Of a stretch of 64,000 nucleotides of DNA, positions 23,861 to 59,015 are shown piece by piece (position 1 is the first letter of the stretch; each line of letters opens with the position of its first letter). A program made the translations under genes and the position numbers. The stretch covers positions 1 to 64,000 of the forward strand of contig ONKF01000013.1 in the NCBI GenBank assembly GCA_900318335.1. The letters are read 5' to 3'. Below the pieces are notes generated by a model. It did no database searches. It was not told the DNA's origin and worked only from the letters and a program-made list of their open reading frames with translations. The DNA is from an uncultured Prevotellaceae bacterium. Lineage in GTDB: Bacteria > Bacteroidota > Bacteroidia > Bacteroidales > Muribaculaceae.

Positions 23861-23881
23861 TTTTCTATCGCTTATTAAAAT

Positions 23882-23962
23882 GAAGACAATAAATACAATA
23901 AAAACAAATTTATCTAATTCTCTCGATGATAAAAAATTGTATTTGTTGTACTTATTGTTTTC
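23882..23962. mobile_element. 81-bp MITE-like palindromic element (no gene)
   Basis: Two 26-nt ends, 23882-23907 and 23937-23962, are inverted repeats of one another. The same ends flank the GxxExxY gene near 57 kb. The right end here differs at one base from the right end there, and shares its AAGTAC variant, whereas both left ends have AAATAC. The interior is about 29 nt and resembles the left part of the larger element up to ATGATAAA, as if the gene had been deleted. It lies 9 nt beyond the radical SAM stop. Confidence 0.6.
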
Positions 23963-23971
23963 TTTTTTTCT

Positions 23972-33608: not shown

Positions 33609-33675
33609 AAACTACGAATTACGCTAACTGAACTAATTTATGAGTTCGTGAAATTAGCGTAATTCGTAGTTTTTA
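33609..33675 (+). terminator. Long perfect hairpin terminator after pulA
   Basis: A 19-bp perfect stem (33609-33627 with 33654-33672) is followed by a T-run. The 26-nt loop can pair further (GAACT at 33630-33634 with AGTTC at 33643-33647). It ends the MFS-malQ-pulA operon. The stem is unusually long and exact. Confidence 0.8.
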
Positions 33676-49557: not shown

Positions 49558-49572
49558 TTTTTTATTCTTATG

Positions 49573-49646
49573 GTTTTCAGTCCTCAGCCCTCAGTTTTCA
49601 GTTGCCAGTGGAATCCACATTCAACTGAAAACTGATGACTGAAAAC
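49573..49646. repeat. Inverted repeat between susE and susF (ACTGAAAACTGAT family)
   Basis: The left arm (about 49573-49603) and the right arm (49624-49646) form a long hairpin with a short insertion, the loop including GTGGA/TCCAC. The unit is related to the direct repeat at 29064-29093. In the transcript it would form a stable structure between susE and susF. Confidence 0.55.
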
Positions 49647-49662
49647 TCGATGATTAATTACT

Positions 49663-55921: not shown

Positions 55922-56953
55922 ATGGATGATAAAAGACACCTGACAATGAAGGATATCGCCCGCGAACTGGGCGTATCGGTTGCGACCGTATCGAGGGCGC
56001 TGAGCGACAGCCCGAGCATTTCCCGCGAACGTCGCCAGGCCATTCAGCAATATGCCCGCGAACACAATTATTTTCCTAATGTCATTGCCGAGCAGCTGCG
56101 CCACAGCCGCCGTAACCCCTCCCGTGCCATCGGTGTGATCGTTCCCGAGCTGGTGCATTACTATTTCTCGTCGATTCTTGACGGTATCGAGGGCGAAGCC
56201 TCGGCGCGCGGTTATCAGATCATGGTAGCCAAGAGCAACGAGAGCTACGAGCGCGAGGTAGAAATCTGTGAGGCGATGCTCAAGAATAAGGTGTGCGGCA
56301 TCATTGTGTCCCAGGCCAAGGACACCGAGAAATATGACCACTTCCTGCATCTGGATGCTGCCGGCGTGCCGTTGGTCTTCTTTGACCGCATCTGCCCGGC
56401 CCTGAACGCCAGCCGCGTGGTCGTTGACGATTACATGGGGACTCTCAATGCAGTTTCCTATCTCATCAGCACAGGCTGCAAGCGCATCGCCTTCTATGGC
56501 GCGCCCATGAACATGGTGATAGCCAAGAACCGCTATAACGGTTACCGCGACGCCCTGTACAAGCACGGCCTGACGGTCGATGAGAAACTGGTGCGAATCT
56601 GCGACAACCGCGCCGACGCCGAGCGCATCACCCCCGCCATGATGCACATGGAGGACAGGCCCGACGCCTTCTTTGCCGTCAACGACGAGACGGCAATCGG
56701 CATCCTTTCGGTGGTGAAGCGCATGGGGTTCACTGTACCCGACGACGTGAGCATCTGCGGCTTCACTAACGGTTTCCGCGCCACCGTGTGCGACCCGATG
56801 CTGACTACAGTGGAGCAGCGGGGCAGCCAGGTGGGCAAGGAGGCGGCCGATATCCTCATCGGCCTGGTCGAGGGCACCCTCCCCACCGACCATGCCGAGA
56901 AACGCATCGTCAAGACCCGCCTAGTCGTCCGCGGCACCACCCGCCACCCCTAA
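55922..56953 (+). CDS. LacI-family transcriptional regulator of starch genes
   Basis: 343 residues. The N-terminal helix-turn-helix MKDIARELGVSVATVSRALSDSPSISRERR (about 9-38) is followed by the hinge (VIAEQLRHSRRNPSRAIGVIV) and a periplasmic-binding-like sensor domain with VPLVFFDRI, GCKRIAFYG, DAFFAVNDETAIGIL and TTVEQRGSQVGKEAADILI. It probably binds a maltose-type sugar. It is divergent from susC, and matching operators occur at three starch promoters including its own. Unlike Bacteroides, where SusR controls sus, this locus uses a LacI-type protein. Activator or repressor action is inferred from operator positions. Confidence 0.92.
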   Translation: MDDKRHLTMKDIARELGVSVATVSRALSDSPSISRERRQAIQQYAREHNYFPNVIAEQLRHSRRNPSRAIGVIVPELVHYYFSSILDGIEGEASARGYQIMVAKSNESYEREVEICEAMLKNKVCGIIVSQAKDTEKYDHFLHLDAAGVPLVFFDRICPALNASRVVVDDYMGTLNAVSYLISTGCKRIAFYGAPMNMVIAKNRYNGYRDALYKHGLTVDEKLVRICDNRADAERITPAMMHMEDRPDAFFAVNDETAIGILSVVKRMGFTVPDDVSICGFTNGFRATVCDPMLTTVEQRGSQVGKEAADILIGLVEGTLPTDHAEKRIVKTRLVVRGTTRHP

Positions 56954-56990: not shown

Positions 56991-57513
56991 AAAAAGAAAA
57001 CAATAAATACAATAAATACAAATTATAAACGGCTAATAATGATAAATTTAGAAAATCTAAAGAATCATCTATTTGATATAGTAGGCGCTTTATATGAAGT
57101 TCATACTGAACTAGGACCTGGTCTAAACGAATACTGTTATCAAGAAGGGTTACGTTTACAATTTGAAGAACAAGGAATCTCTTATCAAAAGGAGCTAACT
57201 TTTCATCCTTCTTACCATGGAAAACAAATGAATGCTGTGTATCGCGTTGATTTTCTGTGTAAGGGGGATATTATTGTTGAATGTAAGTCAGTTGATGCTC
57301 TTAATGCAGACATGAGGGCACAACTTTACAACTATATGCGCCTGCTTAAATGCCCGTGTGGCATCATTGTGAACTTTGCTGGAAAGAAAGCTGAAGTCGA
57401 GAGATATTTCTATGATGACCAATCGCGCAACATTTTGACGGTTGATGGACGCAGTGTTCATAAATATCGCCAATAAAATATTGTATTTATTGTACTTATT
57501 GTTTTCCTTTTTT
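56991..57513. mobile_element. Element with inverted-repeat ends carrying the GxxExxY gene
   Basis: The ends 56996-57021 and 57481-57506 are 26-nt inverted repeats with one mismatch. They enclose one AT-rich gene. The same ends occur around an 81-bp gene-less copy at 23882-23962. A-rich sequence lies on the outside of the left end and T-rich on the outside of the right end. No clear target-site duplication was found. It is set between GC-rich genes, indicating recent arrival. Confidence 0.6.
57039..57476 (+). CDS. GxxExxY protein (PDDEXK_3 nuclease-like)
   Basis: 145 residues. GPGLNEYCYQEGL contains the GxxExxY motif that names the family. YRVDFLCKGDIIVECKSVD provides the Asp and ExK of a PD-(D/E)xK nuclease core, and AQLYNYMRLLKCPCGIIVNF the following conserved Gln/Tyr helix and strand. 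The function of the family is not known; many Bacteroidota and Planctomycetes genomes carry several copies. The gene is much richer in A/T than its neighbours and lies between 26-nt inverted repeats, so it looks acquired. It sits 39 nt or so upstream of the phosphatase gene, and may have displaced that gene's promoter. Confidence 0.9.
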   Translation: MINLENLKNHLFDIVGALYEVHTELGPGLNEYCYQEGLRLQFEEQGISYQKELTFHPSYHGKQMNAVYRVDFLCKGDIIVECKSVDALNADMRAQLYNYMRLLKCPCGIIVNFAGKKAEVERYFYDDQSRNILTVDGRSVHKYRQ

Positions 57514-57551: not shown

Positions 57552-59015
57552 ATGGAGAGAATGAAGAGATTATTAGTTGTATTGATGGCTGTGGTGGCGT
57601 TGTGTGCCAGCGCACAGCCTGAGAGGCCCAAACTGATTGTGGGACTGGTTGTGGACCAGATGAGATGGGACTACCTTTATAACTACGAGTGGGGCGAGGG
57701 CGGCTTCAAGACCTTGCTCCAGGATGGTTACCGCTGCAACAACACCATCATCGACTATGTGCCCACTGTCACCGCCATCGGCCACTCCTCGATCTACACG
57801 GGCACGACACCCGCATTTCACGGCATCGCCGGCAATAACTTCATGCTCAACGGAAAGAACGTGACGAGCGTGCAGGATGACACCGAGCGTGGCGTGGGTG
57901 GCAACGACAAGACCCGCGGCAAATCGCCTCGCAACCTTATCACCACCACCATCGCCGACCAGTTGCAACTGGCCACTGGCTTCAAGAGCCGCACCGTGGG
58001 CATCGCCCTCAAAGACCGCGCCGCCATCCTGCCAGCGGGCCATCACCCCATTGGCGCCTATTGGTTTGATAAGGACTGCTCATCGTTTGTCACCAGCACC
58101 TATTACATGGACAAGTTGCCCAAGTGGGTCAGCGACTTCAACAAGAAGCATCGCGCGGAACTCTCGTTGGAACTAAATTACGTGCCCATGGGCACCATCA
58201 TGACCTTTGCCATGGCCGAGCAGGCCCTGATCAACGAGAACCTGGGCATGGGCGAGGCGACCGACATGCTCGCCATCAGCGTCTCTAACACCGACATGTG
58301 CAGCCACTACTATGGGACCCACTCGCCTAAGGTCGATTCCATCTACATGCAGCTGGACAAGGAAATCGCCCATTTCATCGAGGTTTTGGACCAGCGCATC
58401 GGCCGCGGCAACTACCTGTTGTTCCTCTCGGCCGACCATGGCGGAACCCACAACTATCACCGCATGAAGTCCCACGGCCTGCCCAGCGGCTGCTGGAACA
58501 GTCCCGACGCCCTCATTGCCGCAAATGAATTGCTGGAGAAGCGATTTGGCGTGAAAGACCTGATCAAGGCCGAGATGGAATACACCTTCTACCTGAACCA
58601 CGAAGTCATTGACGCCGCACATCTCGACTACGATGAGGTGATGCGTGCCGCTTGTCAGGCGCTGGAAACTCCTGAGGAAATACAATGGGCCATCGACGTA
58701 GCGCATATCGACTCCTACCCCATCCCCAGCATCCTCAAGGAGCGCATCAAGCTGGGCTATTTCCCCGGACGCAGCGGCGAAATCTACATCGTGCCGCGCA
58801 CGGGCGTGTATGCCGGCAAAACCGAGTGGGCGGGTTCCAATCACGGCACGTGGAGCCAGAGCGACTCCCACATCCCCCTGATCTTCATGGGATGGCACAT
58901 CACGCCTGGCGAGACTAACCGCTTGACCCACATGACCGACATCGCCGCTACAGTGTGCGCCATGCTCCACATCCAGACTCCTAACGGCTGCATCGGCACA
59001 TCGGTGTTCGAGTAA
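57552..59015 (+). CDS. PafA-like alkaline phosphatase / phosphodiesterase-type hydrolase
   Basis: 487 residues from ATG at 57552 (ATG at 57561 is also possible; a TTG at 57522 is not preferred). A signal peptide (MKRLLVVLMAVVALCASAQ) exports it. VVDQMRWDYL holds a metal ligand, PTVTAIGHSSIYTGT the catalytic Thr, LKDRAAILPAGHHP the Lys/Arg pair of PafA, and FLSADHGGTHNY another metal site. PafA removes phosphate from many esters. The usual TD-x-x-GH motif here reads TDMCSHYYG; the His is kept but the Gly is replaced. It is followed by a strong terminator at 59051-59085. Confidence 0.88.
   Translation: MERMKRLLVVLMAVVALCASAQPERPKLIVGLVVDQMRWDYLYNYEWGEGGFKTLLQDGYRCNNTIIDYVPTVTAIGHSSIYTGTTPAFHGIAGNNFMLNGKNVTSVQDDTERGVGGNDKTRGKSPRNLITTTIADQLQLATGFKSRTVGIALKDRAAILPAGHHPIGAYWFDKDCSSFVTSTYYMDKLPKWVSDFNKKHRAELSLELNYVPMGTIMTFAMAEQALINENLGMGEATDMLAISVSNTDMCSHYYGTHSPKVDSIYMQLDKEIAHFIEVLDQRIGRGNYLLFLSADHGGTHNYHRMKSHGLPSGCWNSPDALIAANELLEKRFGVKDLIKAEMEYTFYLNHEVIDAAHLDYDEVMRAACQALETPEEIQWAIDVAHIDSYPIPSILKERIKLGYFPGRSGEIYIVPRTGVYAGKTEWAGSNHGTWSQSDSHIPLIFMGWHITPGETNRLTHMTDIAATVCAMLHIQTPNGCIGTSVFE

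Follow-up and report, generated by a model that had tools for sequence, protein, structure and literature searches.

A predicted nuclease gene of the GxxExxY family shares its inverted short-unit arms with dispersed gene-less hairpins in an uncultured Prevotellaceae bacterium and its congeners

A GxxExxY gene and gene-less palindromes in the window

The stretch of DNA considered here (the window; 64,000 nucleotides from an uncultured Prevotellaceae bacterium, whose genome of 3.15 Mb is denoted G000) contains a cassette of about 520 bp that is located between protein-coding ORFs and not in a helix of 23S rRNA. The cassette consists of a left arm (56991..57021, + strand) built from T-type units ACAATAAAT, a GxxExxY (PDDEXK_3) gene of 145 amino acids (57039..57476, + strand; based on ORF, profile match and alignment), and a right arm (57481..57511, − strand) with the units ACAATAAGT and ACAATAAAT. 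Both arms are 31 nt long and 94% complementary; the 26-nt inverted ends with one mismatch (56996-57021 and 57481-57506) described in a sequence-only reading of this DNA are present and can be extended to this length. A gap of 17 nt separates the left arm from the start codon, and one of 4 nt separates the stop codon from the right arm, hence arm, ORF and arm are considered as one cassette. The neighbouring ORFs, both named by eye, encode a LacI-type regulator on the left (55922..56953, + strand) and an alkaline-phosphatase-like protein on the right (57552..59015, + strand, start inferred), and both run in the same direction as the GxxExxY gene. The gene has an inverted-repeat score of 25, whereas none of the other 43 non-nested ORFs tested in the window exceeds 11.

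The presence of a GxxExxY gene inside the ends, likewise part of the sequence-only reading, is borne out by matches of the protein to the profiles PF13366 (E-value 1.3e-30, 106.6 bits, cut-off 22) and TIGR04256 (E-value 3.5e-34, 117.6 bits, cut-off 35). In the GxxExxY alignment of 41 relatives, the residues D71, E81, K83, Q95 and Y99 are invariant. The catalytic residues of PD-(D/E)XK enzymes are present in the window protein, a predicted nuclease; QxxxY is a motif of the Cas4/RecB type, and a weak match exists between Cas4b and the window protein (E-value 0.0075). No profile other than PDDEXK_3 matches the gene at an E-value of 0.001, and it does not qualify as a Y1 HUH tyrosine transposase. 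A search of solved structures with the GxxExxY protein yielded no credible match (five hits, all with an E-value of 0.6 or worse).

A gene-less copy with the same ends as the gene copy is found elsewhere in the window (left arm 23883..23905, + strand; right arm 23939..23961, − strand). The ends that had been noted around 23882-23962 do recur, with the qualification that these arms are only 81% complementary over only 21 nt. RNA folding of the palindrome (23876-23970) gives z-scores of −7.7 for the + strand and −4.9 for the − strand. A 20-mer arm with at most three mismatches has five matches in the window, compared with a mean of 0.00 in 100 shuffles. The sequence-only reading took the mini-copy for a deletion derivative of the gene copy, with an interior resembling the left flank of the gene. 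This part was not confirmed: the interior of the mini-copy is not significantly similar to the interior on the left side of the gene copy (a fraction of 0.24 of the shuffles score as high), and for all 17 of the 17 mini interiors tested in the genome, the one in the window included, the likeness to the interior of the gene copy does not exceed that of shuffles, with a lowest shuffle fraction of 0.19. With an interior likeness at chance level, origin by deletion is unsupported.

Two further gene-less structures are found in the window. The palindrome at 33611..33670 (unstranded; arm family ACTACGAATTACGCTAA) belongs to the ACTACGAATTAC family, which is present in 36 of 101 congeneric genomes (one per species) with 0 reversed-control matches, and which borders distant GxxExxY genes (loci L165 and L172) in two other species, G048 (on both sides) and G016. 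The intergenic gap 49558..49662 (unstranded) harbors 7-nt AGT, CAGTTTT-like units in an inverted array that lacks a gene; this is the arm type of the IVP genes described below.

The site of the mini-copy was compared in 30 of the 82 matching genomes, each representing a species. A T-type palindrome is, by eye, found at this site in G000 only. An ungapped palindrome test beats all 100 shuffles in 11 of the 30 species, and inverted unit arrays are present in 22 of the 30 (1% of shuffles or less), mostly with 7-nt AGT units. Since many of these arrays are of the related 7-nt AGT type, the repeat family is not a different one in each species. Applied to the intergenic gaps of the window, the same array test is positive in 3 of 21, namely the gene copy, the mini-copy, and the 7-nt array at 49.6 kb.

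Dispersal of the arms in the genome of the window

The arms are periodic, each consisting of two to three 9-nt units ACAAnAAnn. Throughout G000, 80 arm-like 20-mers are found (39 and 41, respectively, on the two strands), compared with 0 for the reversed-pattern control. The multi-copy, MITE-like repeat family that had been proposed to accompany the PDDEXK-like gene is hence present, and the outcome named as refuting the proposal, ends that occur nowhere else, did not materialize. Thirty T-like arm matches correspond to 17 gene-less palindromes of 62-180 bp plus the gene copy, some arms having no clear partner. The ends AAATAC (left) and AAGTAC (right) are found in both copies in the window and in 9 of 10 T-type gene copies, in agreement with the earlier claim of distinguishable ends; the claim does not extend to all elements, as the 18 paired T-type elements of G000, counted by hand with the gene copy included and one pair excluded because of its different ends, comprise 13 with unlike and 5 with like ends, making end polarity a tendency. 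Inspection by eye revealed no target duplications at the 17 T-type minis, the ends of which are not sharply defined.

Several individual loci deserve mention. At L002 and L003 (about 1344-1523), a second palindrome with C-type units seems, by eye, to lie inside the T-type arms, as in nested or composite hairpins. Arrays of TTTAAACT near GCGAGC/GCTCGC motifs recur beside palindromes in the flanks of L017, L019 and L025. The third GxxExxY gene of G000 (L031, G000:C69:46549-46905) has an in-frame TAA, lacks strong arms (arm score of 12), and looks like a dying copy.

With regard to orientation, 11 of the 18 T-type elements (gene copy included) are located between co-directional ORFs and only 2 between convergent ORFs. 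Terminators of convergent genes were rejected as an explanation on the basis of the latter count. Another explanation is that the hairpins are useful to the host, being terminator-like or mRNA-stabilizing and kept alike by concerted evolution, and that the gene borrows one of them as its border. The strong RNA fold, the A/T-rich tails, and the occurrence, in most of the species compared, of inverted unit arrays of one kind or another at the mini site are in line with such a role; the preference for co-directional over convergent positions, the repeat families that differ among species at one address, and the match between arms and gene subclade (see below) argue against it, and we consider it very unlikely.

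Arm families of GxxExxY subclades across the genus

A GxxExxY homolog (E-value 1e-15 or better) is present in 79 of the 101 congeneric genomes. The full-length matches listed are divided into clade 1 (about 50% identity or more) and clade 2 (45% or less). Flanks were examined for 76 of the 77 listed clade-1 matches, leaving out G084:C4, which is shortened and contains a stop, as well as for a sample of 16 clade-2 loci taken from a longer match list. Strong inverted repeats (score of at least 16) are found between the flanks of 55 of the 76 clade-1 (close) and 8 of the 16 clade-2 (distant) loci, with 21 of 76 and 8 of 16, respectively, below this score. The same score is reached by 37 of 1691 flank pairs from loci of unlike arm label, and by 35 of 263 pairs of same-type flanks taken from different sites. 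At one distant locus above the score (L160) the repeat overlaps the end of the gene and is not a unit array.

The arm units of clade 1 vary with the gene subclade, namely ACAATAA (T), ACAAGAA (G), ACAAC (C), ACGATTA and GACAATTA; the arm units of clade 2 are CACGAATGAC and ACTACGAATTAC. T-type arms are found in 40 of the 101 genomes (755 arms in sum, one match of the reversed control overall), G-type arms in 44 of the 101 (about 40 scattered control matches, counted by hand), and a third arm family, ACTACGAATTACRCKAA, in 36 of the 101, with 0 control matches across all 101 genomes. The arm sequences are particular to GxxExxY subclades, and they also form dispersed families of gene-less hairpins.

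A further 36 loci stem from metagenome-assembled genomes of Prevotella, other Bacteroidales, Kiritimatiellae and Verrucomicrobia; 25 of them score at least 16, and 21 of these 25 have ACAAC units. The set, which possibly includes members of the same genus, was obtained from 80 loci, of which 43 were set aside by eye as already studied and 37 were scored, one of the latter (L345) being identical to L091. The contigs titled Kiritimatiellae or Verrucomicrobia (L335, L341, L358 and L361, with arm scores of 18, 9, 21 and 15, respectively) encode GxxExxY proteins that are 60-64% identical to that of the window. These genes reflect either a transfer across phyla or a binning error.

Fixed addresses and replacement of cassettes

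Clustering of 92 loci by both flanks assigns 27 loci to a first address (the site in the window), 26 to a second and 13 to a third, and all other clusters consist of 1-3 loci. The sequence-only reading implied free hopping of gene copies, which is not what the loci reveal: 53 of the 92 are found at two addresses, where whole cassettes are swapped, and it is the gene-less palindromes that are dispersed. One address seems to be common to L090 (clade 1) and L163 (clade 2), which are loci of two species (cluster S5).

Short sequence patterns served to assign the arm labels; among the 13 loci at the third address, 7 are unlabelled. The first address, between the LacI-type regulator and the phosphatase-like ORF, is occupied in 27 species by cassettes of T type (10), G type (12) and C type (5); prior to the tree test the label of L089 was corrected by hand from C to G, the earlier counts being T 10, G 11, C 6. 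On the gene tree of these 27 loci the arm type changes twice, which is the minimum, and 0 of 200 shuffles are as low. The flank tree of these loci requires 12 changes, with a shuffled mean of 11.9 and 133 of 200 shuffles as low; resolution of this tree is weak, 13 of its 24 inner branches being open, and its strongly supported branches alone force 4-5 changes per type. Because the arm type follows the gene tree and not the flank tree, gene and arms together represent a cassette that is replaced at a fixed address. Gene tree and flank tree disagree, hence the vertical inheritance that is a feature of REPIN-RAYT systems is not found here.

The replacement can be followed in individual pairs. The flanks of L066 and L085 are 95% identical on both sides, their proteins are 69% identical, and their arms are of T and G type, respectively; in the alignment, identity reaches the intergenic edges and breaks in the cassette. 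Four further switched pairs with flank identities of 83-94% give the same picture. The cassette is the unit of inheritance at fixed intergenic addresses, and between close species one cassette type takes the place of another with the flanking genes undisturbed. Homologous recombination of the ordinary kind, between species and with tracts whose ends fall by chance in the flanking genes, might account for such an exchange. The address is conserved with long and similar flanks, as this explanation would have it, and just one switched pair reaches 95%, which leaves room for short foreign tracts in the other four; the 95% identity of L066 and L085 up to both intergenic edges, with no foreign flank tract, counts against it, and we regard it as unlikely.

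A set of 20 loci sampled for the first address was inspected by eye, and the gene was found in one of them. Gene-less palindromes at this address (also by eye) are of C type in G067 and G100, of G type in G089, and consist of other units in G021 and G087; remnants comprise one arm in G018 and G057 and are mixed in G016 and G091. In G056 and several more distant species neither the gene nor such arms were seen by eye at this address. The arm pairs without gene at the gene's own address (G067, G100, G089) fit a loss of the gene with the arms being kept. Fixation of both window sites, the other outcome held to refute the sequence-only reading, is not observed at the species level, as the mini site is T-type in 1 of 30 species and the gene site is empty or gene-less elsewhere.

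Selection, expression, and abundance of the arms

The T-type protein is under purifying selection: among 6 of the 10 T-type genes, dN/dS could be computed for 12 of 15 pairs and amounts to 0.01-0.06, most dS values being close to 1 or higher. Of 21 callable GxxExxY sites (neighbours called by ORF length only), 20 have an upstream neighbour that runs in the same direction, whereas the T-type minis of G000 that have unlike ends are divided into 6 with and 5 against the direction of the neighbour (hand count). The difference points to selection for gene expression; it suggests that transcription of the genes starts in the host DNA upstream, with the genes being read from host transcripts, and that this matters for gene-bearing copies only.

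Among the 40 genomes with T arms, and uncorrected for kinship, the median number of T arms per genome is 28.5 with a T-type gene versus 11 without (p = 0.006), and the number of G arms is 8 with a G-type gene versus 6 without (p = 0.02). The cross comparisons, likewise uncorrected for kinship, are weaker: T arms by G-type gene amount to 21.5 versus 9 (p = 0.08), and G arms by T-type gene, in the same 40 T-arm genomes, to 7 versus 7 (p = 0.56). Arms persist without the cognate gene, an example being G100 with 46 T arms and no T-type gene.

Genes for Y1_Tnp are found in 92 of the 101 genomes, and many of the Y1_Tnp (RAYT-like) loci L205-L236 have inverted repeats of their own, including AACACCATGCAAG, GGTCGAAGACC and CGTCGCTGGAGGCGACCCC. 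The palindromes might be spread by such a RAYT/IS200-like Y1 transposase, or by replication slippage, with the GxxExxY gene as cargo between the arms. The prevalence of Y1_Tnp and the persistence of arms in genomes lacking the gene would suit a passenger protein. Against it stand the 0 arms in 32 Y1 loci (71 kb; 20 loci picked from T-arm-rich genomes), the often GC-rich character of the Y1 loci's own inverted repeats, and the arm type that follows the GxxExxY subclade at a shared address. As about two arms are expected by chance in 71 kb at the density of G000, the absence indicates a lack of linkage, not of action; a Y1 transposase as the linked enzyme is rejected on this ground, and the passenger explanation as a whole appears quite unlikely.

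Four-helix-bundle genes with the same plan

The 23S_rRNA_IVP genes (PF05635) encode four-helix-bundle proteins, a family that is unrelated to GxxExxY and has no known nuclease fold. They are present in 91 of the 101 genomes. In a sample of 30 IVP loci, 22 are located between inverted arrays (score of at least 16), with AGTnnnn units in 19 of the 22, and all of the 29 callable loci have a co-directional upstream neighbour (called by ORF length; sites are possibly shared). AGTnnnn arrays are found in 86 of the 101 genomes. The count of the 7-nt pattern in G000 is 73 versus 0 for the reversed control, but reversed counts are high in some genomes (G049, 588 versus 272), such that the pattern is a weak proxy there. 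TCAGTTA, the other strand of TAACTGA, is present in some of the IVP-locus arms (L292, L296). Since unrelated four-helix-bundle genes share the architecture, nuclease activity may not be the mover of the arms, and the step that the two gene families have in common may be binding of the units rather than cutting.

The same observations bear on a reading at the RNA level, in which such cassettes are to intergenic DNA what intervening sequences are to 23S rRNA. Folding of the arms would take place in the host transcript, RNase III would either release the ORF or excise the hairpin, and the protein would be an RNA-binding one. The occurrence of 23S_rRNA_IVP genes in the same kind of inverted arrays at 22 of 30 loci speaks for such a reading, and cassettes located downstream of co-directional genes and a gene-less copy that forms a strong RNA hairpin agree with it. 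In PMC4990558, a 23S intervening sequence is described that consists of a 28-bp terminal stem, an S23p ORF, and heptamers, and that is cleaved by RNase III. An RNA-level process alone does not explain why the arm type tracks the gene subclade, or why cassettes are replaced. The invariant PD-(D/E)XK nuclease residues of GxxExxY also count against it, as a PD-(D/E)XK nuclease usually is a DNA enzyme. Moreover, the authors of PMC4990558 conclude that their S23p protein is probably not made in vivo and is expendable, unlike the GxxExxY gene, which is under selection. We regard the RNA-level reading as somewhat unlikely.

Relation to known systems

In RAYT systems the repeat type is specific to the gene lineage. 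According to PMC8049555, the RAYT is a few-copy, vertically inherited gene at fixed positions, bordered by a repeat that is dispersed as gene-less palindromes, and REPIN repeats are commoner where the gene is present. The cassettes described here resemble REPIN-RAYT systems in that a gene with few copies at fixed positions is bordered by a palindromic repeat that is also dispersed without gene, in that the repeat type goes with the gene lineage, and in that the repeats are more numerous in genomes with the gene. They differ in the gene, judged from its sequence to be a PD-(D/E)XK nuclease instead of a Y1 HUH transposase, in the arms, which are AT-rich tandem 9-10-nt units, and in that cassettes replace each other at an address, unlike the vertically inherited RAYTs.

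Gene-less 23S rRNA intervening sequences exist. In the intervening sequence of PMC4990558, tandem heptamers are located just upstream of the S23p ORF. Terminal inverted repeats around one small ORF and tandem short units beside the ORF are shared with the cassettes described here, and the PF05635 genes, mostly with 7-nt-unit arms, parallel the heptamers. Unlike these sequences, the cassette is intergenic, the gene in the window encodes a predicted nuclease of an unrelated family, and gene-less copies are dispersed.

Intergenic heptamer repeats are also found in cyanobacteria (STRR). The TAACTGA arrays consist of tandem 7-nt units in intergenic regions, with five Bacteroidetes among their carriers; they are direct repeats with one inverted case, and the functions of the ORFs downstream of them follow no pattern (PMC4679880). 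The arrays considered here are, by contrast, paired in inverted orientation, with or without a gene between them.

MITEs and IS elements likewise have short terminal inverted repeats and gene-less copies. The differences are a gene for PDDEXK_3 and not for a known transposase, periodic ends, gene copies at fixed addresses, and mini interiors that, unlike those of a MITE of an IS, show no sign of derivation from the gene copy (17 of 17 at shuffle level). A lack of target duplications may be a further difference, as none was seen by eye around the 17 minis with their loosely defined ends.

Among the literature matches listed, which cover few subscription journals and leave preprints aside, no title or beginning of an abstract describes the pairing of GxxExxY with hairpins. 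The mentions of GxxExxY or PF13366 in the retrieved texts concern other subjects, with one passage that refers to it only in passing.

Interpretation and significance

The results suggest that the nuclease gene is a partner of small hairpin repeats. Our best reading, held tentatively and at somewhat less than even confidence, is a partnership like that of REPINs and RAYTs with a PDDEXK nuclease in place of the transposase; its anatomy and the replacement of cassettes are observed, and mobilization by the nuclease is what we infer. The ORF would be read from the transcript of the upstream host gene, and the PD-(D/E)XK nuclease with its QxxxY motif would recognize the 9-10-nt units of its cognate arms as a hairpin or cruciform and cut these arms. 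Repair or copying would then give rise to palindromes in new intergenic sites, as well as to swaps of palindromes and cassettes.

A wider formulation, possible but on the doubtful side, is a broad class of palindromes of inverted short-unit arrays that carry either GxxExxY, with units of 9-10 nt, or a four-helix-bundle protein, with units of 7 nt, or no gene at all. Its members would undergo homing-like, hairpin-to-hairpin replacement at conserved intergenic addresses, with the protein acting on the cognate units, and 23S rRNA intervening sequences would be members that settled in rRNA.

To our knowledge, neither the GxxExxY nor the IVP four-helix-bundle genes have an agreed function. If each family has cognate hairpins, two protein families would gain a testable substrate, and many short bacterial repeats would gain a candidate enzyme. 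The spread of 23S rRNA intervening sequences, an old question, would then become testable in intergenic DNA.
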